Shown here in pieces: positions 20,707 to 35,153 of a stretch of 64,000 bases of DNA. Location of the stretch: the NCBI RefSeq assembly GCF_900105395.1, contig NZ_LT629775.1, forward strand, positions 1,364,001-1,428,000, read 5' to 3'. Position 1 is the stretch's first letter. Every line of letters begins with the position of its first letter. The DNA comes from Streptomyces sp. TLI_053 (GTDB lineage Bacteria; Actinomycetota; Actinomycetes; Streptomycetales; Streptomycetaceae). The position numbers and the translations under genes were made by a program. The notes beneath the pieces were generated by a model. The model ran no database searches and was not told the DNA's origin. It saw nothing but the letters and a program-made list of their open reading frames with translations.

Positions 20707-23085
20707 TCAGGTGGTCTTCTGCAGGTTCCAGCTCTGGTAGGTCTGGCCGTTCGGCTTCTGCAGCTCCAGCAGCCAACCGCCGTAGTACCAGCGCTTGCCG
20801 ACACCGAGGACGAGCTCGGAACCGTCGGCGGTCAGGACGACCGCACCGCCGGCGGAGGTGACCCGCCACTTCTGCCCGGCCGCGTCCGAGCAGGGGCGCT
20901 GCGCGACGTACTGTCCGGCGACCGGGTTGCCGCCGAGCTGCAGGCACTTCTCCGAGCGGACGGACTTGATCCGCAGCGTGCCCGCGCCGCTGTCCTCGAA
21001 GGTCCACTTCTGGTTGGCGTAACCGGTGCGCTGGTAGGCGATGGCCACCGTGCCGTCGTTGAGCGAGCTGCCCCAGAGGTCGGCGGCCTGGCCGGTGAGG
21101 CCGTTCAGCAGGCTGTAGCGGGTCCCGGGCTGCGGCTTCCCGGCGTCGGCGGCCGTGCGGAAGGAGGCCGCGCGACCCGGCTTGGAGACCGCTCCGGCGG
21201 CGTCCCGGACGGCCACCGCGACGGAGTAGGCGGTGTCGGGCGCGAGCCGGACCACGCCGACCACGGTCGCCCGGACGGTGCCGATCGTCTGGCCGTTCAG
21301 CAGCACGTCGTACCCGTTCGCGCCCTTCACCGCGGGCCAGCTCAACACGGCCGAGGTCTGGGTGACCTGACTGACCGTCATGGCCGGGCCGGTGCCGCCG
21401 GTGGGTGAGGCGGTCGGGGTCGGGGTCGGGCTCGGGGTGGTCGATCCGGTGGGACTCGGCGTACCGGTGGAGGTCGGGGTGCCGGTCGGCGTCGGGGTAC
21501 CGGTGCCGGTCGGAGAGCCGGTCGGGCTCGGGGTGCCGGTCGGGCTCGCGGTCGGCGAGGCGCTGTTGGTGGCGGTCGGCCCCGCGGTGGGCGAACCGGT
21601 CGCGGTCGGCGTGCCGGTGGGCGTCGGGGTGCCGCCGGTCGCGGTGGGCGACGGGCTGCGGGTCGGCGAGTTCGTCGGGGTGGGCGAGCCGGTCGGGCTC
21701 TTCGTCGGGTCGGGCGTCGGCCCGGTGCCGCCGCCGGCGATCAGGAAGCGGTTGTTGGCGACGTTCCAGTGGGTGGCGAGGTAGCTGCCCGGCGCCGGGT
21801 CGGTGTGGTAGTAGTCGTCGTGCCGGCAGTCCAGGCGCATGTCACTGGCGTTGTCCGGGCAGACCGTGCGCATCGCCGGGTAGTACGGGGTGTCCGAGTA
21901 GCACATGATGTCCCACTCGTCGACGCAGTGGCCGCCCTTGCTGGAGTTGGGCGCGCTGTTGCTCACCGCGCCCAGGTTGTGGCCGAGTTCGTGCGCGGCG
22001 GTGTGGCCGCCCCAGCAGCCCGAGTCCGTCCGGCCGTAGGAGGGGCCGAAGTTGCTCAGGTTGTCCTGGCCGGGCCGCTCGTCGCCGGCGAAGGTGCCGA
22101 TGCCGCAGTACACCTTGGCGTCGGCGAAGATCATGTACTTGCGGTCCTTGCGGTTGAGGCCCTGGGCCGCGATCGCACGGTTGCTGGTGTTGAAGTCGGC
22201 CATCTCCGCGTCGGACACCTGGATGTTCAACACCGAGGCGGAGCAGTCGGATTCGGTGACGAACCGGACGTGCCGGACACCACCCGTCTCCTGGGCGCTC
22301 GCGTTGTAGATGACGTCGACGTCGGCGGCCCACTTCTTGAAGGAGGCCAGGTACTGGGCGAACCGGTCGTTGCCCGGGGTGTGCGCGTAGACCACCTGGA
22401 CCCGGTTGCCGGCACTGCCGTCGCCCTCGCAGACGACGCCCTGGCCGCCGGCGGCGGGCGCGGCGGCGACCGCCTGGTCACCGGCCGCGTCGGCCAGCAG
22501 CGTCTTGGTCGCCGCGTCCAGGACCGGCATCGAACCCTTCACCAGGTCCGCGGCGGTGGGCGGTTGGGCATCGGCCGGGGGCGTCAGCGGGGCCGGCTGG
22601 GCGACGGCGGCGGCCACCGGCGGGACGTCCTTGCGGATGTCCACGTCCTTCGGCGGCGCGTCCGGGCCGTGGCTGCACAGCTCGCCGCCGGTCACCTCCA
22701 GCGAACCGGCGCAGCGGTCGCCGGCGGGCAGGTTCAGTCCGGCGTAGACCAGGCCGCGTTCGGGCTGGTCCTTGGGTATCTCCTTGATCGGCGCGGCCTT
22801 CTGGTCGCGCTTCGGCCCGGGGGCCCTGGTGGCGTTCTCGGCGGTGCCGGTCTCGCCCGTGCCGTCGTCGGCGATCGTGCCCGCCATGGCACCGCCCACC
22901 CCGTCGGCCGAACCCGCCACCGCGCTCGCCGCGGCGGTGTCGTGCACCGCGGACGACTCCATGGCGGTGCTGATGCCCAGCGCGCCCGCGACCAGTCCGG
23001 CCGCGACCGCCAGTGAGATCAGTGCCGTGCGCTTGCCCGTCCGTCGACGCCGCCGACGGCGGAGCTCCGTGCTCCGGTGCCCCAT
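20707..23085 (-). CDS. secreted zinc metalloprotease with FN3 and ricin-type lectin domains
   Basis: 792 aa; the ATG at 23085 follows GAGAGGAG at 7 nt. An Arg-rich start and hydrophobic segment (~18-36) form the signal anchor. A pro-region precedes the catalytic domain with HTAAHELGHNLG (His365, Glu366, His369) and a Met-turn DIMCY (Met394), a zincin/metzincin pattern. A PTGTPT-type linker (~458-563), an FN3 domain (~567-645) and a ricin-B carbohydrate-binding domain (~656-790, QKWTFEDSG, CLQLGG, QSWNLQ) follow. It probably degrades polymer-bound protein outside the cell. The canonical third metzincin ligand (HExxHxxGxxH/D) is Ser375, so another residue must serve. Confidence 0.88.
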   Translation of the reverse strand: MGHRSTELRRRRRRRTGKRTALISLAVAAGLVAGALGISTAMESSAVHDTAAASAVAGSADGVGGAMAGTIADDGTGETGTAENATRAPGPKRDQKAAPIKEIPKDQPERGLVYAGLNLPAGDRCAGSLEVTGGELCSHGPDAPPKDVDIRKDVPPVAAAVAQPAPLTPPADAQPPTAADLVKGSMPVLDAATKTLLADAAGDQAVAAAPAAGGQGVVCEGDGSAGNRVQVVYAHTPGNDRFAQYLASFKKWAADVDVIYNASAQETGGVRHVRFVTESDCSASVLNIQVSDAEMADFNTSNRAIAAQGLNRKDRKYMIFADAKVYCGIGTFAGDERPGQDNLSNFGPSYGRTDSGCWGGHTAAHELGHNLGAVSNSAPNSSKGGHCVDEWDIMCYSDTPYYPAMRTVCPDNASDMRLDCRHDDYYHTDPAPGSYLATHWNVANNRFLIAGGGTGPTPDPTKSPTGSPTPTNSPTRSPSPTATGGTPTPTGTPTATGSPTAGPTATNSASPTASPTGTPSPTGSPTGTGTPTPTGTPTSTGTPSPTGSTTPSPTPTPTASPTGGTGPAMTVSQVTQTSAVLSWPAVKGANGYDVLLNGQTIGTVRATVVGVVRLAPDTAYSVAVAVRDAAGAVSKPGRAASFRTAADAGKPQPGTRYSLLNGLTGQAADLWGSSLNDGTVAIAYQRTGYANQKWTFEDSGAGTLRIKSVRSEKCLQLGGNPVAGQYVAQRPCSDAAGQKWRVTSAGGAVVLTADGSELVLGVGKRWYYGGWLLELQKPNGQTYQSWNLQKTT

Positions 23086-23300
23086 CGGGTGACTCCTCTC
23101 CTCGTGCGAGGGTCCGGCCACCGCTCGGGGTGATGGCCTGAACCTTCCGACACTCCGGAGACCGGCCCGGGCGGGCCGGATAACAAAAACCTCTTTTCGA
23201 AATTCGCGCGGGCGGACGAGGGCGTCCGGCCGGGACTCGAGGCGCGGTCGGTGACACGTCGTCGGCGCCCCGCCCGGGGGCCGGTGCGCGCCTCGGGACC

Positions 23301-23400
23301 GGCAGGACTCCCTCGTGAGCGGCAGGACGCCCTCGGAAGCAGCAGGGGCGCCCTCGTAGCGGTAGGACGCCCTTGTGAGCGGCAGGACGCCCTCGGGACC
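23301..23400. repeat. 20-bp tandem repeat array, five copies
   Basis: Five exactly spaced 20-bp units based on GGCAGGACGCCCTCGTGAGC occupy 23301-23400, with a weak sixth before them. They lie within the 327-bp gap 23086-23412 and stop 12 bp short of the next leftward gene's stop codon. The other end of the gap (23178-23205) is AT-rich and contains TTTTCGAAATTC, probably the protease promoter. Confidence 0.9.
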
Positions 23401-23412
23401 AGCGAGCCCGTC

Positions 23413-23949
23413 TCAGGCCGCGACGTCGAGCCGCTGCGGGGCGAGACCGAGGCTGCCCTGCCGGTGCAGCGCGGCGAGGCCCGCCGCGAGCTGCCCCGGA
23501 TCACCCGCCAGCCAGTACCGGAGCGCGGCCGACAGGGCGGCGCTCGCCGGGCCGATCCGCAGACCGGTCACCGCCGTGATCCGCTCGCCGACCAGCGGGA
23601 GCAGATCGGCGACCGGCGCCGGCAGCCAGAGGGTGACCGCGCACGGCGCCGGCCGGGCCAGCACCCGCAGCAGCCGCAGCACGTCCGCGTCCCCCGGGCC
23701 CGGCCCCGGCGCCGCCTCGGGCCCTGACGCGGCCCCGGCCCCGGCCCCGATCCCCTGGGCGACGGGCAGCACCGTCGGCTCCGGCCGGGCCGGGAACAGC
23801 GGGAGGACGTGCAGACTGGGGACGACGTCGATCAGCCCGTCCGCCGCGACGTCGGACATGTCGGCGCCGTGTCCACGCGCGAGTTCACGCAGCAGGGCCC
23901 GTTCGGCGGCCGCGATCCTGACGGTCAGCATGACTTCTTCGCAGTCCAT
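23413..23949 (-). CDS. hypothetical protein downstream of ribosome-stasis factor
   Basis: 178 aa from the ATG at 23949 (GGGAAC upstream; ATG 23931 is possible). The N-terminus MLTVRIAAAERALLRELARG resembles a short strand-helix DNA-binding or coiled element. The middle is Pro/Ala/Gly rich (GIGAGAGAASGPEAAPGPGP), and the C-terminal half is Leu/Ala-rich helix (VADLLPLVGERITAVTGLRI). I do not recognise the family. It follows the HPF-like gene by 88 bp on the same strand and may belong to the same stress-induced transcript. Confidence 0.6.
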   Translation of the reverse strand: MDCEEVMLTVRIAAAERALLRELARGHGADMSDVAADGLIDVVPSLHVLPLFPARPEPTVLPVAQGIGAGAGAASGPEAAPGPGPGDADVLRLLRVLARPAPCAVTLWLPAPVADLLPLVGERITAVTGLRIGPASAALSAALRYWLAGDPGQLAAGLAALHRQGSLGLAPQRLDVAA

Positions 23950-24037
23950 GGTCCCAGTTCCCCGTCCAGAGCGTGAGGGTGTGCTCGTCCGTTGTCGGTC
24001 GTGTACCGGTCAGCCCTTGCCGATCATTACCTGCCCG

Positions 24038-24817
24038 TCAGTAGGGGTCCGCTATCGGCGTGATCAAGCCATAGTGGCCGTCGTAGCGGCGGTACAGGAT
24101 CCGGCCGCGCCCGTCACCGGGATCGGTGTGGAAGACGAAGGGCCAGCAGGTCAGCCAGAGTTGGCGGGCCGCTTCGAGGACGTCCAGCCGGGAAGCCGGG
24201 TGCGCGCTCTCCGTCAGTGGCAGCCCCGAGCTGCCGAGCCGGGCCGTGGAGTGGGCCCGTACCAGCCGGAATCCCCCGCTCGCGGGTGTCCGGTGGACCA
24301 CGCTGTCCTGGCCGGTGAGCACGTCCGAGAAGAGGTGGAACCGGTAGTCGAGGGCCAGCATCTCGCGCACCGCCTGCTCGGGCGTGTGCCGGACCAGGAG
24401 CACCGACTTCCGCCGGACGATCCGCCGTTCGGCGAGCGGCCGCGGCGCGTACTGGGGACGGTAGGAGCTCTCGTACGCCGTCGCCAGCCCGATGTCGCCG
24501 AGCTCGCGCAGCCGGACGGCGCGCCCGGCGAGAGTGCCGAGCGCCAGGTCGACCGCCTCCCGGACGGTCACCGCCGCCAGTTCCACCCGGACCCGCCCCA
24601 CGCCCGCCAGGTCCAGCGCGGCCTGGGCGACGGCGGGCCTGGTCACCGACCGGTCCCGCGGCCGGGTGAGCCGCAGCCGGGCGGTGTGCGCGTCCGGCCC
24701 GAGGTCCGCGATCAGCGCCAGGCACCGGCTCCGGGCGTACTCCGCGTCCTCGCGGGGCAGTTCGCCCCGGATCTCCACCCGGACGTCGAGGGCGGGCCGG
24801 TGGCGCAGACGGGTCAT
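24038..24817 (-). CDS. RafS/HPF-like ribosome-associated stasis factor with two S30AE C-terminal domains
   Basis: 259 aa. The ATG at 24817 has AGGAGG upstream. An N-terminal S30AE-like domain (~8-110) is followed by two copies of the HPF C-terminal dimerisation domain. The first is at ~130-190 (IVRRKSVLLVRHTPEQAVREM, HLFSDVLTGQDSVVHR), the second at ~205-256 (WPFVFHTDPGDGRGRILYRR). Length and double tail match mycobacterial RafS, a DosR-controlled factor that stabilises ribosomes in hypoxic stasis. The OsdR/DevR-like palindrome just upstream supports the same logic here. Confidence 0.8.
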   Translation of the reverse strand: MTRLRHRPALDVRVEIRGELPREDAEYARSRCLALIADLGPDAHTARLRLTRPRDRSVTRPAVAQAALDLAGVGRVRVELAAVTVREAVDLALGTLAGRAVRLRELGDIGLATAYESSYRPQYAPRPLAERRIVRRKSVLLVRHTPEQAVREMLALDYRFHLFSDVLTGQDSVVHRTPASGGFRLVRAHSTARLGSSGLPLTESAHPASRLDVLEAARQLWLTCWPFVFHTDPGDGRGRILYRRYDGHYGLITPIADPY

Positions 24818-24872
24818 CAGGGGATCCTCCTCGGTTCGGCACCATGCTGGACCCGTGCACGCCCTCCCGCCG

Positions 24873-24888
24873 AGGGCCGAAAGGCCCT
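24873..24888. promoter_or_regulatory. OsdR/DevR (DosR-like) operator candidate
   Basis: AGGGCC-GAAA-GGCCCT is a perfect 6-bp inverted repeat 55 bp upstream of the ribosome-stasis gene. From memory it matches 14 of 16 positions of the S. coelicolor OsdR consensus AGGGCCGATCGGCCCT. Confidence 0.5.
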
Positions 24889-25248
24889 GCCCACCAGGCA
24901 GGACGACCCGGGCGGACCCGAACGGTCCGCCCCCCGGGCGGGGTCGCCGACGGCCGTCCGGACGGCCCCATCGGGACGCCACGCGTACACCTTGAGGACA
25001 CTCCACCGATGGGGTGATCAACCCGGGTACGGCGCAACGCTCACGGGACCGGCGCGTTTCCCATGGCGTGCGCCCTCTGGCAGCGGCGCGCGCGGGGTCC
25101 GCGTCGACCGGCCCCCGGAACCCGGCGGTCGCGGCGGCGGCTCCGGTGGTACCGCAACGCCGGGCCGTTCGACCGGTCCGACACCGACCGGTCGCGCCGG
25201 ACCGTCCCACCGGTCCGTTCCCCGGTCCATCTGGTGAGAGGTGATGTC
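24889..25248. promoter_or_regulatory. gene-free divergent spacer upstream of the P450-terpene synthase gene
   Basis: No convincing gene. Two further perfect inverted repeats are present: GGGCGGACC-CGAAC-GGTCCGCCC (24910-24932) and the 16-bp palindrome GGCCGTCCGGACGGCC (24952-24967). A TTGAGG at ~24992 could be a -35 box for the rightward gene. GAGAGG at ~25236-25241 is the ribosome-binding site that selects ATG 25249. Confidence 0.45.
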
Positions 25249-28200
25249 ATGATCCTGACGAACGAGACCCGCAGACCGCCCGCCCCGCCGAGAACCCCCC
25301 CGGCAGGGCCCCGCCGAGCGGTCGTTCCCCCGCTCGCCCCCGGCGCACTGCCCGGGCTCGGCCACGCCCCGGCCCTGCTGCGGGACCCGCTCGGCTTCCT
25401 CGGCTCCCTCTCCCGGTACGGCGACGTGGTCCGGATCCGCCTCGGCCCGCGCACCGTCTGCGTCGTCACCGACGCCGGCCTCGTGCACACGCTGCTCGTC
25501 GCGCTCGCCCACGACTGCCCCCGCGGCGCCGTCCAGGACACCCTGAGGACGGCTTTCGGGGACGGCCTGCTGATGTCCGAGGGCCGCGCCCACCGCGACC
25601 GCCGCCGGATCATCCAGCCCGCCTTCGGCCCGGACCGGATGGCCGACTACCTGGCCGTCATGCACCGGGTCACCGAGGAGCGGGCCGACCGCTGGCGCCC
25701 CGGCCAGGTCCTCGACGTGGCCAAGGAGATGAACCACCTCGCGCTGGAGATCGTCACCCGCGCGCTCTTCGACGCCCGGCTGAGCGAGGACGCCACCCTC
25801 GCCTTCCACCGCGCCCTGCCCGACCTGGTGAAGGGACAGATCGTCCAGTCCCTCTACCCGCACCCGGCGCTCGCCCGGCTGCCACTGCCGGTGAACCGGC
25901 GCTTCGACGCCGCCGTCCGGGTGCTCAACCGCGTCGTCGACCAGGCCGTCAACGGCACCGCGCCCGGCGGCCGGTACGGCGCGCGCGGCGGACCGGCCGA
26001 GCACGGCGGACCCGGCGGACCCGGCGGACCGGCTTTGCGCGGCGGGCCGGTCGGGCCTGGCGCCGGTGCGGCCGGGGGCGGCTGCCCGATGACCGGGGGC
26101 GGGGCCCGGCGCACCGGCCTGCCCGCCCTGCTGCGGGCCGCCGTCGACCCCGCCACCGGACGGCCGCTCACCGAGGCGGACGTCCGCTCCGAGGCGATCA
26201 CCATGTTCGGCGCCGGCACCGAGACCGTCTCCACCACGCTGACCTGGCTGATCGACGAACTGGTCCGGCACCCCCACATCGAGGCCCGCGTCCTGGCCGA
26301 ACTGGACGAGCACCTCCCGGCCGGGACGGTGCCCACCCCGGAGGCGCTCGCCCGACTCGCCTACACCCGTGCCGTCACCCAGGAGGTGGTCCGGCTGCAC
26401 GCGCCGAACGCCTTCCTGATGCGCACCGCGCGCGTCCCGGTCACGCTCGGCGCCTACCGGATCCCGGCCGGCACCGAACTGCTCTACAGCCTCACCGCGA
26501 TCCACCGCGACCCCGCCCTCCACCCGGACCCGCTCCGGTTCGACCCCGACCGCTGGTACGACCCCGACGGGACCGGGGGAACGGGCACCGGCGGTACCGC
26601 CGCGGCCCGGCAGGCCTTCCTCCCGTTCGGCGCCGGCAAGCACAAGTGCATCGGCGAGGCCTTCGCCTGGGCCGAGTTGACCGTGGCGGCCGCCGCCGTC
26701 CTGCGGCGCTGGCACCCGACGGCCGTCCCCGACGGGCGGGCCCGCGAGGTCGTCTGGACGACCGTCCAGGCCCAGGGCCTGCGGGTGCGGCTCACGCCGC
26801 GCGGCGGAAGCCGGGCGCCGCACGCCCCCGGCTCGCGCCGCACCCCGGCGCCGGGCGGCCGGGACGACGCGCCGGCCCGGTGCCTGCCGATCGCCGGGCC
26901 GCGCCGCTCGACCCTGCTGCCCGCACGGTCGACGGTGCTGCCCGGCCGGTCGGCCCGGTCCGCTCCCGGCCGGTCGTACCCGGCGGCGCTGCACACCACC
27001 GCGCTGCGGACCGCCGCCCGGACGGTCGCCCGCACGGCTTCGCGGGCCACCGATCCGCGTACCTCCGACTCGCGCGCCCCCGACTCGCGCACCTCCGATC
27101 CACGTGCCTCCGGTCCACGCGCCCACGACCCGCGTACCTCCGACTCGCGCGCCACGGAGGCGCGCAGCGTCTCGCGCAACGCCGACCGAACGGGCCCGCG
27201 CCCTCGCGGCGCCGGCAGCGAGCCCCTCGCGCCTGGGCCGGGCACCGCTCGGCGCCTCGTCCTCCTCGGACCCGTAACGGCCGTCCCCCGGCCCGCGCCG
27301 TCCCCCCGAACCACGCCGCGGGCCCGACCGGCGGGCCGCACCGGCACGGCCCGCCGTCCGCTCCTCCGGCCCGGCACCGAATTGGCCCGAACCCCGGCCG
27401 AACTCACCGCCGCCACCGCCCGGCACGACGACTGGGCGCTCGCCCACGGCCTGCTCGCCCCGGCCGACCTCGCCCGCTACCAGTCGTTCGCGCTGCCCGA
27501 GCTGATCGGCCACGCCTACCCCCGCGCCCGCGGCGCGGAACTGGACCTGCTGATCGACATCCTGGGCTGGTTCACCATCCTCGACGACCGCTTCGACGGC
27601 CCGCCGGGACGGGACCCCGCCACGGCCCGCGCCGTCGTCGCACCGCTGCTCGCCGTCGTGGCCGGCCGCCCCGTCCCGGCTGGCGGCCCCCAGCCCCACC
27701 TGGTCGACGCCTGGCGGGAACTGTGGCAGCGCCAGACCGCCCCCATGTCACCGGAGTGGCGCCGACGCACCGCCGACGAATGGCGCTCCTGCCTGGAGAC
27801 CTTCCTCGCCGAGACCGCCCACCGCGCCGCGTGCACCCACCCCGACCTCGCCGAGACCGTCCGGCTGCGCCGCCACGCCAGCTGCCTCTATCCGTTCATG
27901 GGCATACTGGAGCACGTCCACGGCGGCGAGGCACCGGCCGCCCTGCACCGGGACCCGGCGCTGCACCGCCTGCGCGCGAACACCGCCGATGCGGCGACGC
28001 TGATCAACGACCTGTACTCGGCCGACCGGGAGGAACGCCAGCAGGTCGCGGCCTTCAACACCGTGCTCACGCTGCAACGGGTCCGCGGCTGCACCCGGGC
28101 GCGGGCGGTGCGGTCCGTCGGCACGAGGATCGCCCGGCTGACCGCGGAGAGCGAGTCGCTGCGCCGCCGGCTGCTGCTCCGTCACCCGGAGGGCGGCTGG

Positions 28201-28290
28201 TACCTCCACGGCACCCGGGAACTCGTCGAGGGCGTCCACGCGTGGACCAGCACCAGCCGGCGCTACACCGGCGGGGACGCCGCGCGCTGA
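25249..28290 (+). CDS. fused cytochrome P450 - class I terpene synthase
   Basis: 1013 aa in one uninterrupted frame. The P450 part (~28-517) has I-helix GAGTET (321-326), ExxR (Glu379-Arg382) and heme motif FGAGKHKCIGE (Cys467). A Gly/Pro-rich insertion (~237-287) sits before the I helix. Residues ~518-705 are an Arg/Pro/Ser/Asp linker with TSDSRA-type repeats. The C-terminal ~706-1013 is a class I terpene cyclase: aspartate motif DDRFD (779-783), pyrophosphate-sensor Arg874 exactly 46 residues before the NSE triad NDLYSADRE (Asn920, Ser924, Glu928), and RY at 1005-1006. Every catalytic residue is intact in both halves. The inferred role is to cyclise a prenyl diphosphate and oxidise the product within one polypeptide. 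No ferredoxin, reductase or prenyl synthase lies beside it. Substrate and product are unknown. Confidence 0.9.
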   Translation: MILTNETRRPPAPPRTPPAGPRRAVVPPLAPGALPGLGHAPALLRDPLGFLGSLSRYGDVVRIRLGPRTVCVVTDAGLVHTLLVALAHDCPRGAVQDTLRTAFGDGLLMSEGRAHRDRRRIIQPAFGPDRMADYLAVMHRVTEERADRWRPGQVLDVAKEMNHLALEIVTRALFDARLSEDATLAFHRALPDLVKGQIVQSLYPHPALARLPLPVNRRFDAAVRVLNRVVDQAVNGTAPGGRYGARGGPAEHGGPGGPGGPALRGGPVGPGAGAAGGGCPMTGGGARRTGLPALLRAAVDPATGRPLTEADVRSEAITMFGAGTETVSTTLTWLIDELVRHPHIEARVLAELDEHLPAGTVPTPEALARLAYTRAVTQEVVRLHAPNAFLMRTARVPVTLGAYRIPAGTELLYSLTAIHRDPALHPDPLRFDPDRWYDPDGTGGTGTGGTAAARQAFLPFGAGKHKCIGEAFAWAELTVAAAAVLRRWHPTAVPDGRAREVVWTTVQAQGLRVRLTPRGGSRAPHAPGSRRTPAPGGRDDAPARCLPIAGPRRSTLLPARSTVLPGRSARSAPGRSYPAALHTTALRTAARTVARTASRATDPRTSDSRAPDSRTSDPRASGPRAHDPRTSDSRATEARSVSRNADRTGPRPRGAGSEPLAPGPGTARRLVLLGPVTAVPRPAPSPRTTPRARPAGRTGTARRPLLRPGTELARTPAELTAATARHDDWALAHGLLAPADLARYQSFALPELIGHAYPRARGAELDLLIDILGWFTILDDRFDGPPGRDPATARAVVAPLLAVVAGRPVPAGGPQPHLVDAWRELWQRQTAPMSPEWRRRTADEWRSCLETFLAETAHRAACTHPDLAETVRLRRHASCLYPFMGILEHVHGGEAPAALHRDPALHRLRANTADAATLINDLYSADREERQQVAAFNTVLTLQRVRGCTRARAVRSVGTRIARLTAESESLRRRLLLRHPEGGWYLHGTRELVEGVHAWTSTSRRYTGGDAAR

Positions 28291-28306
28291 TCCCGGGCGG
28301 GCCGGG

Positions 28307-28513
28307 TCACTTCCGGTCGCCGAGGGCGAACAGCAGCAGGACGAAGCCGGCGAACAGGTGCGTGGCGAAGATGTAGATGCCCGCCCGGATCAGCATCGCC
28401 CGACGCCGGGCCTTCTCCTCCAGCGTCGCCCGCCGGCCCGTGGTGCCGTCGTCGCCCGCGGCACCGCTACCGGGTGCGGTGCCGTCGTGGCCGGTGGTGC
28501 CGTCCGGGCTCAT
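28307..28513 (-). CDS. DUF6126-type small membrane protein
   Basis: 68 aa: a Gly/Asp/Thr-rich N-terminus, then RRRAMLIRAGIYIFATHLFA and FVLLLFALG, a single membrane helix with a Lys end. It matches the short streptomycete DUF6126 proteins that follow ArsR-type regulators. Its ATG overlaps the ArsR stop (ATGA), so the pair is co-transcribed. It converges on the P450-terpene synthase gene with 16 bp between stops. Confidence 0.7.
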   Translation of the reverse strand: MSPDGTTGHDGTAPGSGAAGDDGTTGRRATLEEKARRRAMLIRAGIYIFATHLFAGFVLLLFALGDRK

Positions 28514-28866
28514 CGGTGGCCCGCCGGGGTCGCGGGGGTCTCGGGCCCGCGCAGCTCGCCGAGCAGCGCGTCCTGGTCGGTGATCAGCTCGGTCAGGATC
28601 CGCCGGGCGGCCCGCAGCAGTTCGGCGACGTCCGGTGTGCTGAGGGCGTAGACGACCGTGTTGCCCTCGCGGGTCGCGGTCACCAGCTGGGTACGGCGCA
28701 GGACGGACAACTGCTGGGAGAGATTGGACGGCTCGATCCTGATCTCGGCCAGCAGCTCGCGCACCGGTCGCGGTCCGTTCTGGAGCAGTTCCAGGACGCG
28801 GATACGGACCGGGTGTCCGAGCGTGCGGAAGAACTCCGCTTTCGCCTGGTAGAGCGGGACCGGCAT
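28510..28866 (-). CDS. ArsR-family winged-helix transcriptional regulator
   Basis: 118 aa; the ATG at 28866 has GGAGAG upstream. The winged helix spans ~10-90: ATLGHPV-like FRTLGHPVRIRVLELLQ, recognition helix IEPSNLSQQLSVLRR, and wing TREGNTVVYAL. No metal-binding Cys pair (ELCVCDL) is present in helix 3 (VRELLAEIRIE), so it is not a classical metal sensor and may answer to another signal. It is coupled to the DUF6126 gene. Confidence 0.88.
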   Translation of the reverse strand: MPVPLYQAKAEFFRTLGHPVRIRVLELLQNGPRPVRELLAEIRIEPSNLSQQLSVLRRTQLVTATREGNTVVYALSTPDVAELLRAARRILTELITDQDALLGELRGPETPATPAGHR

Positions 28867-29040
28867 CGTCCGTTCTCTCCTGCGGGTCGGGGACGGGCTC
28901 GTTGGCCGCCGGGCGGCGTGAAGCATCATCCTTGCGGATGAAGATTTCTTCAAGTCGTCATCACCGAACACGGAAAGCGGATGCAGAGCGGCGGGAAAGC
29001 CGGGGGACGCCGAGGGGCCGACAGCCGCGGGGAGGCAACA

Positions 29041-29075
29041 GTGCGGGCCCGGGACCGTTGGCCCCGGGCCCGCAC
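29041..29075. terminator. hairpin terminator after small secreted protein gene
   Basis: GTGCGGGCCCGGG (29041-29053) pairs perfectly with CCCGGGCCCGCAC (29063-29075) around a 9-nt loop, 21 bp after the leftward stop at 29097. Confidence 0.75.
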
Positions 29076-29096
29076 CGCCCTACCGGGCGCGCGTCA

Positions 29097-29567
29097 TCAA
29101 CACGGCACCACGACGTCGACGGTCACCGGAACGGGACCCCACGGGTAGGCGGAGGCACTGAAGCTGCCGTGCACGGTGGAACCGCACGGAACGGTGCCGC
29201 CGACGCCACGCACCTGCACGGTGCTGGCAGTGAAGCGGGTGTACCCGCTGACCGAGCCGAGCGACGCGCCGCCGACGACCTGGCCGGACAGGCCGGTGAT
29301 CAGCTCGACGGTCTGCGGCCACGGGGTGCCGGGGCTCGGCGGGCCGGCCAGGCTGATCTGCCCGTACAGCTGGACGTTGTCACCGGTGATCTCGGCGCAC
29401 ACCCGGGTCGACAGACCGGCCTGCAGGCCGGAGGCACCGCAGGTGGTGGTGGTGCCGATGATGCCCGTGGTGGCGGTCTGGGCGGCACTCGCCTCGGCCG
29501 GCACGGCCAGCAGGGCAGCCGCGCCGACGATCCCGGCCGCGGTCAGGGTGAGTCGGTTCATCCGCAT
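29097..29567 (-). CDS. small secreted protein, function unknown
   Basis: 156 aa, ATG at 29567 preceded by GAGGAGGAG. The signal peptide (LTAAGIVGAAALLAVPAEASA) is followed by a Thr/Gly/Val-rich, apparently all-beta mature domain with four Cys (TTCGA, RVCAE, VPCGS and C-terminal VVVPC), probably two disulfides. No catalytic motif or known family is evident. An 11-bp palindrome lies 45 bp upstream in an AT-rich promoter region, so it is probably specifically regulated. Confidence 0.75.
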   Translation of the reverse strand: MRMNRLTLTAAGIVGAAALLAVPAEASAAQTATTGIIGTTTTCGASGLQAGLSTRVCAEITGDNVQLYGQISLAGPPSPGTPWPQTVELITGLSGQVVGGASLGSVSGYTRFTASTVQVRGVGGTVPCGSTVHGSFSASAYPWGPVPVTVDVVVPC

Positions 29568-29611
29568 GTCCGCTCCTCCTCTTCTCTCTTTGACTGCAAG
29601 GAATCAACATG

Positions 29612-29637
29612 GCCACATGTGACATTTCACATGTGGC
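29612..29637. promoter_or_regulatory. 26-bp operator palindrome
   Basis: GCCACATGTGA-CATT-TCACATGTGGC is a perfect 11-bp inverted repeat with a 4-bp spacer, in an unusually AT-rich 170-bp stretch upstream of the small secreted protein gene. Nearby TCGATGGCGTGA occurs twice as a direct repeat (29719-29730 and 29741-29752). Confidence 0.65.
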
Positions 29638-29756
29638 ATGTCGTAAGACTTTCATGCGATTCCAATGCAAGAAAGGGCCAAGATCAGAACAGTTGATGAT
29701 CAGACTGGAAACTGGCCTTCGATGGCGTGATTCTCAGCCCTCGATGGCGTGAATCA

Positions 29757-30584
29757 CTACTCGCCCAACGGCACTCGGCCGGCACTCAGCCGCTGGGCGC
29801 TCTCGATCGCCATGTCCATGAACGCGAGGGCGTCGGCCCGCCGGGTCAACGGGTTCGGATAGCGGGAGCGCCCCCGTCCGCCGTCCCGGATCCGCAGGCA
29901 CTCGTCCACGATCCGGTACCAGCGCTCGTCGAACACCGCCCGGGCGTACTCGCCCGCCCCGCGCTTCGAGGCGATCCGCCCGGTCGCCAGCGTGAAGTGC
30001 GCGCGGCTCACCCCGAGCACGCCGTGGGCCGGGCCGGCCCCGTCCAGAAGGGCCAACCCCGCCCGCGAGGCCAGCCGCGAGGAACGCCGCCGCCACGGGC
30101 GCCAGTAGTCCTCCAGACTCCCGGCCGTCCACACCGCGAGCTCCCCCGGCGCGGTGTCGATCATCAGCTCCTGGGCCCGTGGACCACAGAGCGTGACGCC
30201 GTGCCGCGCCAGGGTGTGCCAGAGCACCGGCGTGCGGTCGGTTCTCACCCGGTGCCGGACCGTCCCCCCGAGCACCTGCGGTCCCGGCGCCGCCTGGGTG
30301 GGCGGGCCCGCGAGTTCGTGCCAGGTCAGATAGGGGCCGTCGAACGCGGGGCGCGGATAGCGGGCCGCCAGCCGGGCGTGCGCGCGCTCCAGCCCCGCGA
30401 GCTGCGCCGCCGTCACCGGATCGGCGGACACGGCCACGAAGTCGATGTCGCTCCGCGCCGGGTGGAAGTCCCCCAGCGCGGCCGAACCGACCACGTAGAG
30501 GCCCTCGACCAGCCCGGGTGCGGCGGCGTCGACCAGGGTCAGGTAGGCGTCGGCGATCTCGTGTACGAGAGGGTGCACAGTCAC
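29757..30584 (-). CDS. aminoglycoside-adenylyltransferase-like nucleotidyltransferase
   Basis: 275 aa, GTG start at 30584 with a weak ribosome-binding site. The polymerase-beta-type nucleotidyltransferase motif is complete: YVVGSAALGDF, then SDIDFVAV with the two metal-binding Asp (GS-x10-DxD). The C-terminal half (~160-250) is helical, like the DUF4111 domain of AadA-type enzymes. It could adenylylate a small alcohol such as an aminoglycoside. Many streptomycete members are uncharacterised, so resistance should not be assumed. Confidence 0.8.
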   Translation of the reverse strand: MTVHPLVHEIADAYLTLVDAAAPGLVEGLYVVGSAALGDFHPARSDIDFVAVSADPVTAAQLAGLERAHARLAARYPRPAFDGPYLTWHELAGPPTQAAPGPQVLGGTVRHRVRTDRTPVLWHTLARHGVTLCGPRAQELMIDTAPGELAVWTAGSLEDYWRPWRRRSSRLASRAGLALLDGAGPAHGVLGVSRAHFTLATGRIASKRGAGEYARAVFDERWYRIVDECLRIRDGGRGRSRYPNPLTRRADALAFMDMAIESAQRLSAGRVPLGE

Positions 30585-30944
30585 GGCGGCAAGCCTGCCA
30601 TCCGGATGACCCTCCGTGTCCGCTCGTTTCCGCTAAGGATCGGCGCGTGTTGGTCAGCTGTGCACCCTCTTCGCGCCACCCTCACTCCCTTTTGCGCCAC
30701 CCCCTCGCCACCCTCGCCACCCGCGCCACCCCGGGTGGGAGCGGGCGGACAGGCTCTGCGGGGGCCGGCCGACCGGGGCGGCGGGGGCAGCCGGCCGGGC
30801 GGCGAGCGCCGGTGGACGGGGGCGGGTGCGCGCGGATGCCGAAGGCACGGGCGTAGGCACGGGCGTAGGCACGGGCCTCGGGTGCAGGCGGGACTCAGCG
30901 GGCGTGCGGGAGCCGGAGCGTGCGGGCCCAGGGACGGACGGGCC
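30585..30944. other. gene-free low-complexity stretch
   Basis: No supported gene. 30670-30740 is a run of GCCACCC-type units, and 30848-30882 repeats GGCACGGGCGTA two to three times. Codon bias is absent in all frames. Confidence 0.6.
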
Positions 30945-31070
30945 GGGCAGGCTCAGGAGCGGGCAGGCTCAGGAGCGGGCGGGCTCAGGAGCGGGCGAGC
31001 TCAGGAGCGGGCGAGCTCAGGAGCGGGCAGGCTCAGGAGCGGGCGAGCCGGGCCGGGCAGGCTCAGGGCC
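30945..31070. repeat. 16-bp minisatellite array
   Basis: Six exactly phased 16-bp units (GGGCAGGCTCAGGAGC with G/A changes at two positions) occupy 30945-31040, followed by a 14-bp and a degenerate 16-bp unit to 31070. The last copies enter the stop region of the leftward GH3 gene (stop at 31063). Since 16 is not a multiple of 3, it is not a coding repeat. Confidence 0.92.
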
Positions 31071-32379
31071 GACTGAAGGAAGTGCGGAGGGTGTCCACGC
31101 GGCCGACGGCGCTGCTGAACTCCCCGGCGTCCAGACGGCCACTGTCGAGGGCGACCGCGATGGCCTCCGCGGCGGCGTCTCCCTGCTGGACGTCGCGGGC
31201 GGAGCACAGCAGGAGGTCCATGCCCGCCAGGGCCGCGGCGACCGCCCGCTCCCCGGTGTCCCCGAAGGCGGCGAGAGCACCGGCCTCCAGGGCATCGGTG
31301 ACGGTCACCCCGCGGAATCCGAGGCGCCGACGCAGCTCGCCCTGGACGACGGCGCCGGACAGTCCGGCCGGGCGCTCGGCGTCGAGGGCCGGATAGACCG
31401 CCCAGGAGGCCATCACCAGCCGGACCCCGCCGGCGATGGCGGCACGGTAGGGCTCCTCGCCCCGTGCCCGGAGCTCGGCCAGCGGGACCGGCAGGACGAC
31501 CGGGCGTTCGTCGGTGTTCTCGTCACGGGCCGCGGCGCCGAGACCGGGGAAGTGCTTGGCGGTGGCGGCGACCCCCAGCTGCTGCTGGGCGGCGAGGAAG
31601 GCGGTGGCCGACTCGGCGACCGCCTCGGGATTCCCGCCGTAGGAGCGCTCGAAGTGGTCGATGAAGTTGTCCGGTGCGTCGAAGACGTCGAGTACCGGCG
31701 CGAGGTTGACGTTCAGGCCCGCGTCGATCAGGGTGCCTGCCGCTCCCGCGCCGGACCGGGCCGCGTCCCCGGCCGGATCGGCGGCCGCGCCGGTCTGCCG
31801 GGCCGAGCGGACGGGCTCCCCGGGCAGCCGCCGGACCTTCCCGCCCTCCTGGTCGGTCATCAGCAACAGCGGTGCGCCGGAGGGCGATTCCTGCGCCGCG
31901 CCCTTCAGTATCTGCATGGCCACCCGGAGTTGCTCGGGCGAGGGAGCGTTCTCCTTGAACAGGATGACACCGGCGGCGCGGCCCGCCCGGATGGTGTCGA
32001 GCAGTTCCGGCGGAGGGGTGTCGCCGCGGTAGGAGTAGACGATCCGACGGCCGGCGAGCCGGAGCGACGCGGCGGTGGGCGCAGCGGTGGGCACGGTGGT
32101 GCTCCTTCCGGTGGGAGTCGGGTTCCCCGGGGTCGTCCCGACCCCGTCGGTGTCGCCGGCGGCGCGGGTCGCAGTGCCCGTGCCCGGGTCGACGGGCCCG
32201 GTCGGCCGGTCGGGTGGCGCCTGTACCGCCACCGGCGCGACCGGGCCGAGCCCTGTCGCCGGACCCACCGCCGCCAGCAGCAGTACCAGGAGCGCGAAGC
32301 GGACCCGTCGGCGGGACGTCCGACGGGTGCTGCGGCGTGACGGGCGGGGCATGGGGCCTCCACGGCGGGGCGTCGACAT
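31063..32379 (-). CDS. secreted glycoside hydrolase family 3 (NagZ-like)
   Basis: 438 aa; the ATG at 32379 has GAGGGAGG upstream (an ATG at 32352 is also in frame). An Arg-rich start plus hydrophobic stretch (26-47) acts as signal sequence, then a Pro/Thr-rich linker to ~105. The GH3 barrel includes LLLMTDQEGG (172-180), NVNLAPVLDV, AKHFPG (274-279) and the nucleophile Asp362 in GVTVTDALEAG. In NagZ the loop after KHFPG carries the acid/base Asp-x-His; here it reads RDENTDE without His, so the mechanism or activity may differ. Likely beta-N-acetylglucosaminidase of wall or chitin fragments. Confidence 0.85.
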   Translation of the reverse strand: MSTPRRGGPMPRPSRRSTRRTSRRRVRFALLVLLLAAVGPATGLGPVAPVAVQAPPDRPTGPVDPGTGTATRAAGDTDGVGTTPGNPTPTGRSTTVPTAAPTAASLRLAGRRIVYSYRGDTPPPELLDTIRAGRAAGVILFKENAPSPEQLRVAMQILKGAAQESPSGAPLLLMTDQEGGKVRRLPGEPVRSARQTGAAADPAGDAARSGAGAAGTLIDAGLNVNLAPVLDVFDAPDNFIDHFERSYGGNPEAVAESATAFLAAQQQLGVAATAKHFPGLGAAARDENTDERPVVLPVPLAELRARGEEPYRAAIAGGVRLVMASWAVYPALDAERPAGLSGAVVQGELRRRLGFRGVTVTDALEAGALAAFGDTGERAVAAALAGMDLLLCSARDVQQGDAAAEAIAVALDSGRLDAGEFSSAVGRVDTLRTSFSRP

Positions 32380-32611
32380 CCGGCCTCCCTCGGTCGGTCG
32401 GGATCCGGGCCGGGCGGGATCCGGACCGGGCGGGCGGGCCGGTCGGGTCAGGCGGGTCGGGCGGGCGGGTCGGCCCGGTTTGGTCGGGTCGGGCGGGTCG
32501 CCCCGGGAACGGCCAGGATCGTCGATCGGTGCGCGGGAGTCGACGGGTTCGACCGCGGACACGCCGCCGGTGCCGCGGACCCCGCGACCGGACGGCGTAA
32601 CAGCAGCAGCC

Positions 32612-34231
32612 TCACCCCGGGCACGGTGGTCCCGCCTCCCGGAGCAGCCGTCCGAGGACGGCGACGCCCTCCTCGATCTCGCCCGGTGTGCCGGCCCCGT
32701 ACCCGAGGACCAGTCCCGGCGGGTGCGGCAGCCGGGCGTGCCAGGACAGCGGGTGCACCTTCACCCCGTGGGCCAGCGCCGCCGTCGCGAGCTCGGTGTC
32801 GGTGCAGGGCAGACCGTCGGGGAAGGTGAGCATGAGGTGCAGCCCGGCCGCCGCGCCGTGGACCGCGGCACCGGGCAGGTGGGCGGCGAGGGCGGCCGTC
32901 GTGGCATCGCGTCGGCGCCGGTGGCGGGTGCGCTGCAGCCGGAGGTGGCGCTCCAGGGCGCCCGATTCCATCAGGTGGGCGAGGACCAGCTGCGGGAGTG
33001 CGGCGTTGCCGAGGTCGCTGAGCCGTTTCGCGTCGACCAGGGAATCCCGGTATCGGGCGGGGGCGAGCACCCATCCGGTGCGCAGCGCGGGGGCGAGCAG
33101 CTTGGAGACGCTGCCGAGGTAGACGACCTGCTCGGGGAGGACACCGCGCAGGGCGGGCACGGGCGGGCGGTCGTAGCGGTGTTCGGCGTCGTAGTCGTCC
33201 TCGATCACGAGCCCGCCGTCGGCCGCCCATTGGAGCAGTTCGCGGCGTCGGGCGCCGCCGAGTACGACGCCGGTCGGGAACTGGTGGGCCGGCGTCAGCA
33301 GCACGGCCCGGGCGCCGACGGCGCGCAGCGCGTCCACCCGGATGCCGTCCGCGTCGACGGGGACGGGCGGGGTGGCGGTGATCCGGTGACCGAGGTGCTG
33401 CCGGGTGCCGAGGGAGCCCGGGTCCTCGACGGCGACCACGTCCAGGCCGTCCGCACGCAACACCTCACCGACGAGGGCGAGCGCCTGGGCCGCCCCGGCG
33501 ACGACGAGAACCTCCCCGGGATCGGCGCGGATGCCGCGGTTGCGGGCCAGCCAGTCGGCGACGGCGCGGCGCAGGGCCGGGGTGCCACGCGGGTCGCCGT
33601 AGCCGAAGTCCGGTGCGGCGAGGTCGCGCAGGACGGCGCGTTCGGCGCGCAGCCAGGCGGTACGGGGGAAGGCGGCGAGGTCGGGGACGCCGGGGGTGAG
33701 GTCGATCCGGGCGGGGGCGGTGCGGAGGGAGTCGAAGACGGTCGTGGCGGGTGCGCCGTCGAACGGCGAGGCGGGCGCGGGGGTGGTGCGGGCGGGTCCG
33801 GGGCGGGCGGGTCCGGGGCCGGTACCGGCGGGGTGTGTGCCGGCGGGGCGGGGGGCCGGCGGGCGGGTGGTCGTGGGCCGGGGCGGCGGCACGGTCTCCG
33901 GGGCGAACTGGTCGACCACGACGGTGCCGCCCCGGCCCAGGCCCGCGATCCTCCCCTCCTCGGTGAGGCGGCGGTAGGCCTCGGTCACCACGCCGCGCGA
34001 GACCCGCAGGTCGGCGGCGAGCACCCGGGTGGCGGGCAGCCGGCTGCCGACGGGGAGCCGGCCGTCATCGATCGCCGCCCGGAGCCGGCGCGCCAGCCAG
34101 TCCGCGAGTCCACCGGCGGGCGCCTGCCCGGGGTCGAGCTGGAGAAAGTCCGCACCCGCCGTTCTGGACCTGTCGATCGAATGATCATTGGACCTGTGCA
34201 CCGGTCCATTGTGCCGGGAGGGTGAAGACAT
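32612..34231 (-). CDS. MocR/PdxR-family regulator (GntR helix-turn-helix fused to PLP aminotransferase)
   Basis: 539 aa. An N-terminal GntR winged helix (~45-105; LRAAIDDGRLPVGSRLPATR, VSRGVVTEAYRRL) is followed by a Pro-rich linker and a fold-type I aminotransferase domain (~180-530) with FGYGDPRGTPALR, EDDYDAEHRYD and PLP-lysine SVSK. Such proteins regulate vitamin B6 or amino-acid genes using the PLP domain as sensor. The first ATG (34231) overlaps the divergent methyltransferase ATG as CATG and has a poor ribosome-binding site, so the true start may be the GTG at 34201. The spacer palindromes are probably its operator. Confidence 0.88.
   Translation of the reverse strand: MSSPSRHNGPVHRSNDHSIDRSRTAGADFLQLDPGQAPAGGLADWLARRLRAAIDDGRLPVGSRLPATRVLAADLRVSRGVVTEAYRRLTEEGRIAGLGRGGTVVVDQFAPETVPPPRPTTTRPPAPRPAGTHPAGTGPGPARPGPARTTPAPASPFDGAPATTVFDSLRTAPARIDLTPGVPDLAAFPRTAWLRAERAVLRDLAAPDFGYGDPRGTPALRRAVADWLARNRGIRADPGEVLVVAGAAQALALVGEVLRADGLDVVAVEDPGSLGTRQHLGHRITATPPVPVDADGIRVDALRAVGARAVLLTPAHQFPTGVVLGGARRRELLQWAADGGLVIEDDYDAEHRYDRPPVPALRGVLPEQVVYLGSVSKLLAPALRTGWVLAPARYRDSLVDAKRLSDLGNAALPQLVLAHLMESGALERHLRLQRTRHRRRRDATTAALAAHLPGAAVHGAAAGLHLMLTFPDGLPCTDTELATAALAHGVKVHPLSWHARLPHPPGLVLGYGAGTPGEIEEGVAVLGRLLREAGPPCPG
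34165..34211. promoter_or_regulatory. probable MocR operator region
   Basis: TGGACCTGT occurs as a direct repeat at 34165 and 34189 (24 bp apart). The second copy also forms TGGACC-8 bp-GGTCCA (34189-34208). Between them AATGATCATT (34180-34189) is a perfect 10-bp palindrome. Phased direct and inverted half-sites are typical of MocR-type regulators. Confidence 0.5.
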
Positions 34232-35153
34232 GACGACCACCAGCGCATCGGCCGACACCACCGCGATCGCTTCCCCTTCGGCCCCTTCCCCTGCGGCCCC
34301 TTCCCCTGCGACTCCTTCCCTTTCGACTGCTTCCCCGGCGCACCCCGACCGGGCCTATGTGCACGGCTACTCCCCCGCCGAGGCCCGCCGCCTGGGCGAT
34401 CAGGCCGACAGCCTCGCCGGGCTGCTGCACGCCGGCACGGTGTACCCGCCGGGCAGCAGGGTCCTGGAGGCCGGCTGCGGGGTCGGCGCCCAGACGGTGC
34501 ACCTGCTGGAGTCCAGCCCGGGGCTGCTGCTGACGGCCGCCGACATCTCCGCCGACTCGCTGGCCCGGGCCCGGGCCCGGGTCGCGGAACAGCTGCCGGA
34601 GGCCCAGGTCTCCTGGCACCACGGCGATCTGCACCGACTCCCGTTCCCCGACGGTTCGTTCGACCACCTCTTCCTCTGCTTCGTCCTGGAACACCTCGCC
34701 GACCCGGCGGCCGCGCTGACGGCACTGCGCCGGGTGCTGCGCCCGGGCGGCACCGTCACGGTGATCGAGGGCGACCACGGCTCGGCGTTCTTCCACCCCC
34801 GCGGCGAGGCCGCGCAGCGCGTCGTCGGCCACCTGGTCCGGCTCCAGGCGGACGGCGGCGGGGACGGCCTGATCGGACGGCGGCTGTACCCGCTGCTCAC
34901 CGGGGCCGGGTTCCGCGACGTCTCGGTCGCCCCGCGCACGATGTACGTGGACGGCGGCCGCCCCGAACTGGCCGAGGGGTTCACCCGGCGCACCTTCGTC
35001 GCGATGGTCGAGGCGGTCCGCGCCGACGCGCTCGCGGCCGGCCTCGACACGGCCGACGACTTCGACCGCGGCGTCGCCGAGCTGCGCCGCACGGCCGAGC
35101 CGGACGGGTCGTTCCACTACACGTTCTTCAAGGCGGTGGCGGTCGGTCCGTGA
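34230..35153 (+). CDS. SAM-dependent methyltransferase
   Basis: 307 aa; the ATG at 34230 has a good GGGAGGG upstream. After a Ser/Pro/Ala-rich leader (~40 aa), the class I methyltransferase core shows motif I VLEAGCGVGAQT, an acidic strand TAADIS, GDLHRLPFPDGSFDH and VLEHLADP, followed by RRVLRPGGTVTVIEGDHG. It resembles UbiE/small-molecule methyltransferases. The shared divergent spacer with the MocR regulator suggests it is a MocR target. Substrate unknown. Confidence 0.88.
   Translation: MTTTSASADTTAIASPSAPSPAAPSPATPSLSTASPAHPDRAYVHGYSPAEARRLGDQADSLAGLLHAGTVYPPGSRVLEAGCGVGAQTVHLLESSPGLLLTAADISADSLARARARVAEQLPEAQVSWHHGDLHRLPFPDGSFDHLFLCFVLEHLADPAAALTALRRVLRPGGTVTVIEGDHGSAFFHPRGEAAQRVVGHLVRLQADGGGDGLIGRRLYPLLTGAGFRDVSVAPRTMYVDGGRPELAEGFTRRTFVAMVEAVRADALAAGLDTADDFDRGVAELRRTAEPDGSFHYTFFKAVAVGP

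Follow-up and report, generated by a model that had tools for sequence, protein, structure and literature searches.

The question raised by this locus is whether a cytochrome P450 and a class I terpene synthase that are read in one frame form a natural fusion enzyme, and what such a chain would do. The window, that is the whole stretch of 64,000 nucleotides of Streptomyces sp. TLI_053 that was analysed (contig NZ_LT629775.1, positions 1,364,001 to 1,428,000), holds the gene at 25249-28290 on the forward strand. An earlier note on this DNA had described a single uninterrupted frame of 1013 codons, and reading of the frame bore this out: it is stop-free until the terminal stop, and with no stop between the domains the P450 cannot be ended alone by normal termination. 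The chain of about 109 kDa (calculated) comprises, in this order, a complete cytochrome P450 (Pfam p450, 8.6e-67), a linker of 204 residues, and a complete class I terpene synthase (Terpene_syn_C_2, 3.5e-34). We consider it probable that this is a bifunctional terpenoid enzyme, in which one chain would cyclise a prenyl diphosphate and the tethered P450 would oxidise the product. The parts of the gene are as follows.

25236..25241, + strand: probable ribosome-binding site GAGAGG, before the start ATG
25249..26802, + strand: N-terminal leader and P450 domain, residues 1-518 (best solved relative 3dbg, E 3.8e-62; invariant motifs)
25951..26118, + strand: Gly/Pro-rich low-complexity stretch within the P450, residues 235-290, with one Cys in GGGCPMTGG
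26647-26649, + strand: heme-ligand Cys467 (the ExxR of the same domain is E379-R382)
26803..27414, + strand: interdomain linker between common anchors (residues 519-722), in which Arg, Ala, Pro, and Thr are abundant, with one Cys
27050..27150, + strand: imperfect tandem repeat of 15 nucleotides (5 residues) in the linker, about 6.7 copies (Tandem Repeats Finder, 70% matches)
27415..28287, + strand: class I terpene synthase domain, residues 723-1013 (solved relatives; invariant motifs)
27583-27597 and 28006-28032, + strand: synthase motifs DDRFD and NDLYSADRE, followed by RY at residues 1005-1006
28288..28290, + strand: stop codon of the fused gene, from the frame reading

The first half belongs to the P450 family by its Pfam match, a heme-ligand Cys in FxxGxxxC, ExxR, and the I-helix motif, and the second half carries the features of a bacterial class I synthase, namely Terpene_syn_C_2, DDxxD, the NSE triad, the sensor Arg, and RY. 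When 18 fused orthologues (window included) were aligned, G321-T326 with E325, E379/R382, and C467 were invariant in the P450 half, as were D779/D780/D783, R874, N920/S924/E928, and R1005/Y1006 in the synthase half. The completeness of both domains, which had been claimed from these motifs, thus holds. By Pfam (E up to 0.001), only p450 and Terpene_syn_C_2 were found on the chain, with no reductase or ferredoxin domain, and the protein therefore does not qualify as a self-sufficient P450. The start ATG 25249 follows GAGAGG with 7 nucleotides between, and GAGAGG stands at this place in 17 of the 18 orthologues. An alternative in-frame start, ATG 25063 inside a conserved upstream block described below, was rejected because its distance keeps the frame in only 7 of 18 orthologues. 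The low-complexity insert of the P450 comprises 56 residues in the window and 12-56 across the 18 orthologues, and its counterpart in 3dbg consists of 11 residues between aligned parts.

The fusion is not confined to the window. Using the synthase piece, we searched 70 genomes of the genus, which we took to be Kitasatospora; the records of the close relatives found by the pattern scan described below include Kitasatospora purpeofusca, K. xanthocidica, and K. aureofaciens, and many others carry the name Streptomyces. In 23 of the 70, a close orthologue with 62-100% identity was present. Both halves lay on one contig in 19 genomes, window included, and in 18 of these 19 complete loci they formed one frame of 793-1013 residues, so that both domains share a frame in several related genomes, as expected of a natural fusion; the orthologues with short linkers have a calculated size of about 87-88 kDa. 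The fused form was accordingly seen in roughly one in four of the Kitasatospora genomes sampled, and the one complete locus of the genus with separate P450 and synthase was that of G034. The remaining four genomes with an orthologue (G031, G044, G045, and G048) show the synthase only, the match beginning 18-114 bases from the contig start, and were left out of the count of 19. Stretches were fetched for 20 places, among which G035 (a distant relative, 38% identity) and G031 (synthase only) were uncounted, and the single stops flagged within the matches of G004 and G027 are terminal stops by their coordinates. The search for proteins with the two domains in the same order, which the earlier note had proposed, hence returned 18 fused orthologues in the genus, with close relatives covered.

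Beyond the genus, 394 genomes of the family gave 24 matches, 23 of them within the genus. Scanning 84,980 species genomes with a pattern that addressed close relatives only gave 22 loci: the two halves are fused in 13 and separate in 6, and a contig end truncates the other 3 (L054, L060, and L074). These loci largely repeat the genus genomes and were not added to the counts. Among plasmids, none of 524 matching records had one place covering 80% of the query, and the five regions that were opened held separate genes; independent fusions across bacteria at large lie outside this coverage.

Whether the shared frame is needed can be judged from the linker. The stop-free frame alone is weak evidence, because an in-frame stop was also missing from 46% of 2000 dinucleotide-shuffled copies of the window linker in this GC-rich genome. 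The linkers of the 18 orthologues, however, have 18 different lengths (28, 30, 46, 48, 50, 59, 60, 62, 63, 67, 77, 82, 85, 89, 93, 95, 204, and 209 residues), and all are in frame; if the frame were not needed, such changes would probably have broken it. When the window linker is compared with that of K. purpeofusca, the differences fall 23/18/61 by codon position (p 8.6e-8), and the ratio of nonsynonymous to synonymous substitution rates (dN/dS) is 0.30, equal to that of the P450 domain. On these sequence grounds, the genus comparison together with the third-position bias lifts the shared frame above chance. The linkers of different orthologues are unalignable, and that of the window contains 19% Arg and no conserved fold-like sequence. 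All are disorder-prone (TOP-IDP mean 0.22-0.40 vs 0.07-0.12 in the domains), so the disordered character noted earlier stands as regards composition, whereas the length then given as about 190 residues becomes 204 by the anchors.

A single Cys occurs in 13 of the 18 linkers, as C-P-[FVIL] in 11 (the strict form R-C-P-[FVIL]-[TS] in 8) and as RCLPI in two, those of the window and K. purpeofusca. Within the P450 insert, GCP[FM] is found in 4 orthologues including the window, and 3 of the 18 have neither Cys motif. Pro follows 11 of the 13 linker Cys residues vs 18% Pro overall, a comparison in which chance is understated because the sequences are related. Separately, the draft assemblies L016, L025, L027, L028, L054, and L060 break in or near the GC-rich linker, and given such breaks public genomes may contain more of these fusions than are annotated.

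The rival explanation that survives best is that the protein is translated fused and that a host protease then cuts the linker, which would leave two separate working proteins as in the unfused relatives. The long, Arg-rich window linker and the fact that the relatives function as separate genes are consistent with such processing. Nevertheless, the shortest linkers comprise just 28 and 30 residues, and no shared linker motif that could be a cleavage site was seen across the 18 orthologues, apart from the Cys-Pro motif in some. We therefore regard cleavage into two working proteins as unlikely.

Lower still in our estimation is the view that the two genes are effectively separate, with internal initiation yielding some or all of the synthase and high G+C content producing the shared frame as a by-product. 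The open frames among the shuffled linkers fit this view, as do the in-frame GTG 563 and TTG 712 in the window and, in some orthologues, a start codon that lies shortly after the synthase core begins. It is countered by the 18 linker lengths that all keep the frame, by the linkers themselves, in which an in-frame ATG is absent from all 18 and ATG, GTG, and TTG are all absent from 6 (CB01881, A2-31, K. aureofaciens CPD02, K. xanthocidica, NRRL S-350, and G018), and by the separate relatives, in which the two genes lie in different frames in 6 of 6 cases. Considering all this, internal initiation seems quite improbable as the main source of the synthase.

We find it harder still to believe that only one domain keeps its textbook role while the other, synthase or P450, serves as a structural or regulatory partner. 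Across the 18 orthologues, neither domain varies at its catalytic motifs, and in three pairs the dN/dS values of the two domains lie at 0.14-0.30; in the fourth (MJM8645 vs MAA19, one of the three pairs with weaker linker constraint mentioned below), the value is 0.27 for the P450 and 0.65 for the synthase. Finally, two genes might have been joined by an error of sequencing or assembly, as the GC-rich repeats within the linker and the four synthase matches close to contig starts could suggest. This is rejected with near certainty, as 18 genomes agree, some in one or few contigs, and all 18 assemblies would have to share the error.

How the fusion arose can be approached through the unfused relatives. 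Six separate pairs were found, in ST-888 (G034), Streptomyces SBT349, S. montanisoli, NRRL F-5126, S. fuscigenes, and S. inusitatus, with 56-68% identity in the best segment. In all six, the P450 precedes the synthase in a different frame, and the P450 stop and the synthase start overlap by 4 nucleotides (ATGA or GTGA; for S. fuscigenes, the overlap was taken directly from the sequence). The statement that the two enzymes are usually kept as separate genes is in agreement with these close relatives. The P450 tail and synthase leader of the separate pairs have a size like that of the shorter linkers. A tree of the P450s (26 rows) places all 18 fused sequences on one side of a branch (support 100/99), with ST-888 adjacent to them (88/91).

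The surroundings were compared with nine queries, from which those at 24038 and near 28302 were excluded owing to a wrong frame. At the other fused loci, an ArsR-type regulator and a GH3 gene flank the fusion in 17 of 17, a MocR-type regulator in 15 of 17, and a metalloprotease in 12 of 17; none of these four flanks was found at the 5 separate pairs examined, ST-888 included. Considering the P450 branch, the shared flanks, and the unfused relatives with the same order and 4-nucleotide overlap, the fusion was probably a single event that started from a coupled overlapping pair in the same order, and the simplest account would be one fusion followed by vertical inheritance. Beyond what the earlier note contained, the fusion is thus conserved in the genus, probably has a single origin, and had an overlapping same-order pair as its likely parent. 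The ST-888 locus (L050, L068) belongs to the same genus and lacks the window flanks, and its record title, Saccharothrix sp. ST-888, is at odds with this kinship.

In the bifunctional enzyme that we favour, translation of the gene would yield a single chain of about 109 kDa, and the synthase domain would cyclise a prenyl diphosphate, most likely farnesyl diphosphate (FPP), with Mg2+ held by DDRFD and NSE. The cyclised product would leave the synthase and then be oxidised by the tethered P450, which would receive its electrons from a ferredoxin and a ferredoxin reductase encoded elsewhere. We infer FPP cyclisation followed by oxidation on the same chain because, for the P450 and the synthase alike, the closest characterised relatives are sesquiterpene enzymes. 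The tether would set a 1:1 ratio and raise the local concentration of the hydrophobic intermediate without a rigid tunnel. Since the linkers vary between 28 and 209 residues, a fixed tunnel between the active sites is disfavoured, and the data suggest that a flexible tether is likelier; the tight channelling once proposed for this protein is accordingly unsupported, because unalignable linkers of such different lengths are unlike a fixed channel. Fixed stoichiometry, proposed along with it, is plausible, but its gain is doubtful: the unfused relatives with overlapping genes probably already have near-equal translation, and covalent joining should therefore add closeness more than stoichiometry.

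Several points weigh against this reading. Cyclisation, oxidation, and the single polypeptide in the cell are all inferred from sequence, and the Arg-rich linker may be cut post-translationally. The choice of FPP as the most likely substrate depends on distant relatives, all under the NCBIfam cut-offs. In three other close pairs, linker dN/dS is 0.56-0.69 with no significant third-position excess (46-81 codons), and in A2-31 and K. xanthocidica an ATG or GTG lies just beyond the conserved synthase Trp. A single origin fits the tree of the synthases (25 rows) without being resolved by it (34% of bootstrap trees), and the two genes of ST-888 may have been split secondarily. An AlphaFold model from 10 sequences (mean pLDDT 42.1, pTM 0.34) was too poor for any domain contact, its confidence being low across almost the whole of the P450 and linker and higher over the synthase only.

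A more far-reaching picture, which we offer as speculation, is that no natural covalent fusion of a P450 and a class I terpene synthase was known before this one, that a swinging tether passes a volatile sesquiterpene to its own oxidase with little escaping, and that the Cys-Pro motif, in the linker or in the P450 insert, is a heme- or redox-related control or a docking point. We consider this whole picture doubtful.

About 190 nucleotides ahead of the start codon lies a further conserved feature.

25031..25059, + strand: conserved block GGCGCAACG-N8-ACCGGCGCGTTT, possible promoter or operator

In the 18 aligned fused genes, ACCGGCGCGTTT is exact in 14 and GCGCAACG in 17. The genome itself holds only one exact copy of the block, and two more places with 3 mismatches vs one for a reversed-pattern control; the block is a possible site for a regulator or sigma factor. 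The divergent neighbouring frame 24041-25210 (- strand), with a ribosomal S30AE C-terminal domain, covers this block with its listed 5' part, and its true start is therefore probably further in than listed. At 29760-30584 (- strand) lies an aminoglycoside-nucleotidyltransferase-like gene with NTP_transf_2 and AadA_C, both just above cut-off. By Pfam, no prenyltransferase or ferredoxin was found among eight neighbouring genes (20710-34261, a small gene directly downstream excepted), two of which matched nothing. Four Fer4_13 ferredoxin-type matches lie elsewhere in the genome and may serve this P450. The same genome has a second adjoining terpene synthase and P450 (C1:9698685-9701706; L002, L004), on the same strand in different frames, with the synthase first.

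Metabolic engineers join enzymes of consecutive terpenoid steps for better yield. A natural fusion with linkers of 28-209 residues, together with its unfused sister pairs, offers a ready comparison of covalent joining with overlapping genes, and it illustrates a likely evolutionary route from overlapping genes to a fused enzyme. The fusion further suggests that part of Kitasatospora makes a product that is as yet uncharacterised and probably a sesquiterpenoid.

In terms of known systems, the nearest characterised relatives are CYP170A1 and pentalenene oxygenase for the P450 and the pentalenene, avermitilol, cucumene, and isoafricanol synthases for the other half, whose nearest solved structures are the pentalenene and avermitilol synthases. 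These synthases share the class I family and motifs; they are stand-alone enzymes and too distant for product inference. The scores stayed below the NCBIfam equivalog cut-offs for pentalenene synthase (105.4 bits vs 675), isoafricanol synthase (152.2 vs 500), pentalenene oxygenase (274.9 vs 800), and the bifunctional albaflavenone synthase NF051859 (299.2 vs 700). The entries 3dbg and 3el3 of the PDB, filed under the title 'putative cytochrome P450', we take to be CYP170A1, the albaflavenone synthase, and DDNGD of 3dbg is presumably the DDxxD motif of its second synthase site. A site of this kind in our P450 was considered and rejected, as DDNGD aligns with VDPATGR of the fused protein. CYP170A1, the nearest solved P450 relative, is likewise a sesquiterpene-oxidising P450 termed bifunctional, but its second site lies inside the P450, whereas the fused protein has a separate class I synthase domain. 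CYP170A1 is reported to be a single P450 with a second synthase site that has farnesene synthase activity (PMC10992849).

The overlapping pairs of Streptomyces and ST-888 have the same order as the fusion, but they are two genes in different frames with a 4-nucleotide overlap. P450-reductase fusions such as CYP102A1 provide the electron supply on the same chain, and their partner domain differs from the synthase fused here. No earlier description of a bacterial P450-terpene synthase fusion was found in the open-access literature searched (preprints and most subscription journals lay outside it), which agrees with the earlier remark that no characterised bacterial example has this order; a term search in the main text of PMC7192455, PMC10563020, PMC12298776, PMC10055836, PMC7369989, and PMC10992849 likewise gave no passage on such a fusion. 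EutB is a terpene cyclase fused to a truncated HMBPP reductase domain (PMC11574762), that is, an actinobacterial class I synthase with a fused partner, as here, although the partner is not a P450. Fungal chimeric prenyltransferase-terpene synthases carry consecutive steps on one chain (PMC10563020), and the enzyme described here would join consecutive steps in the same way with different partner domains.
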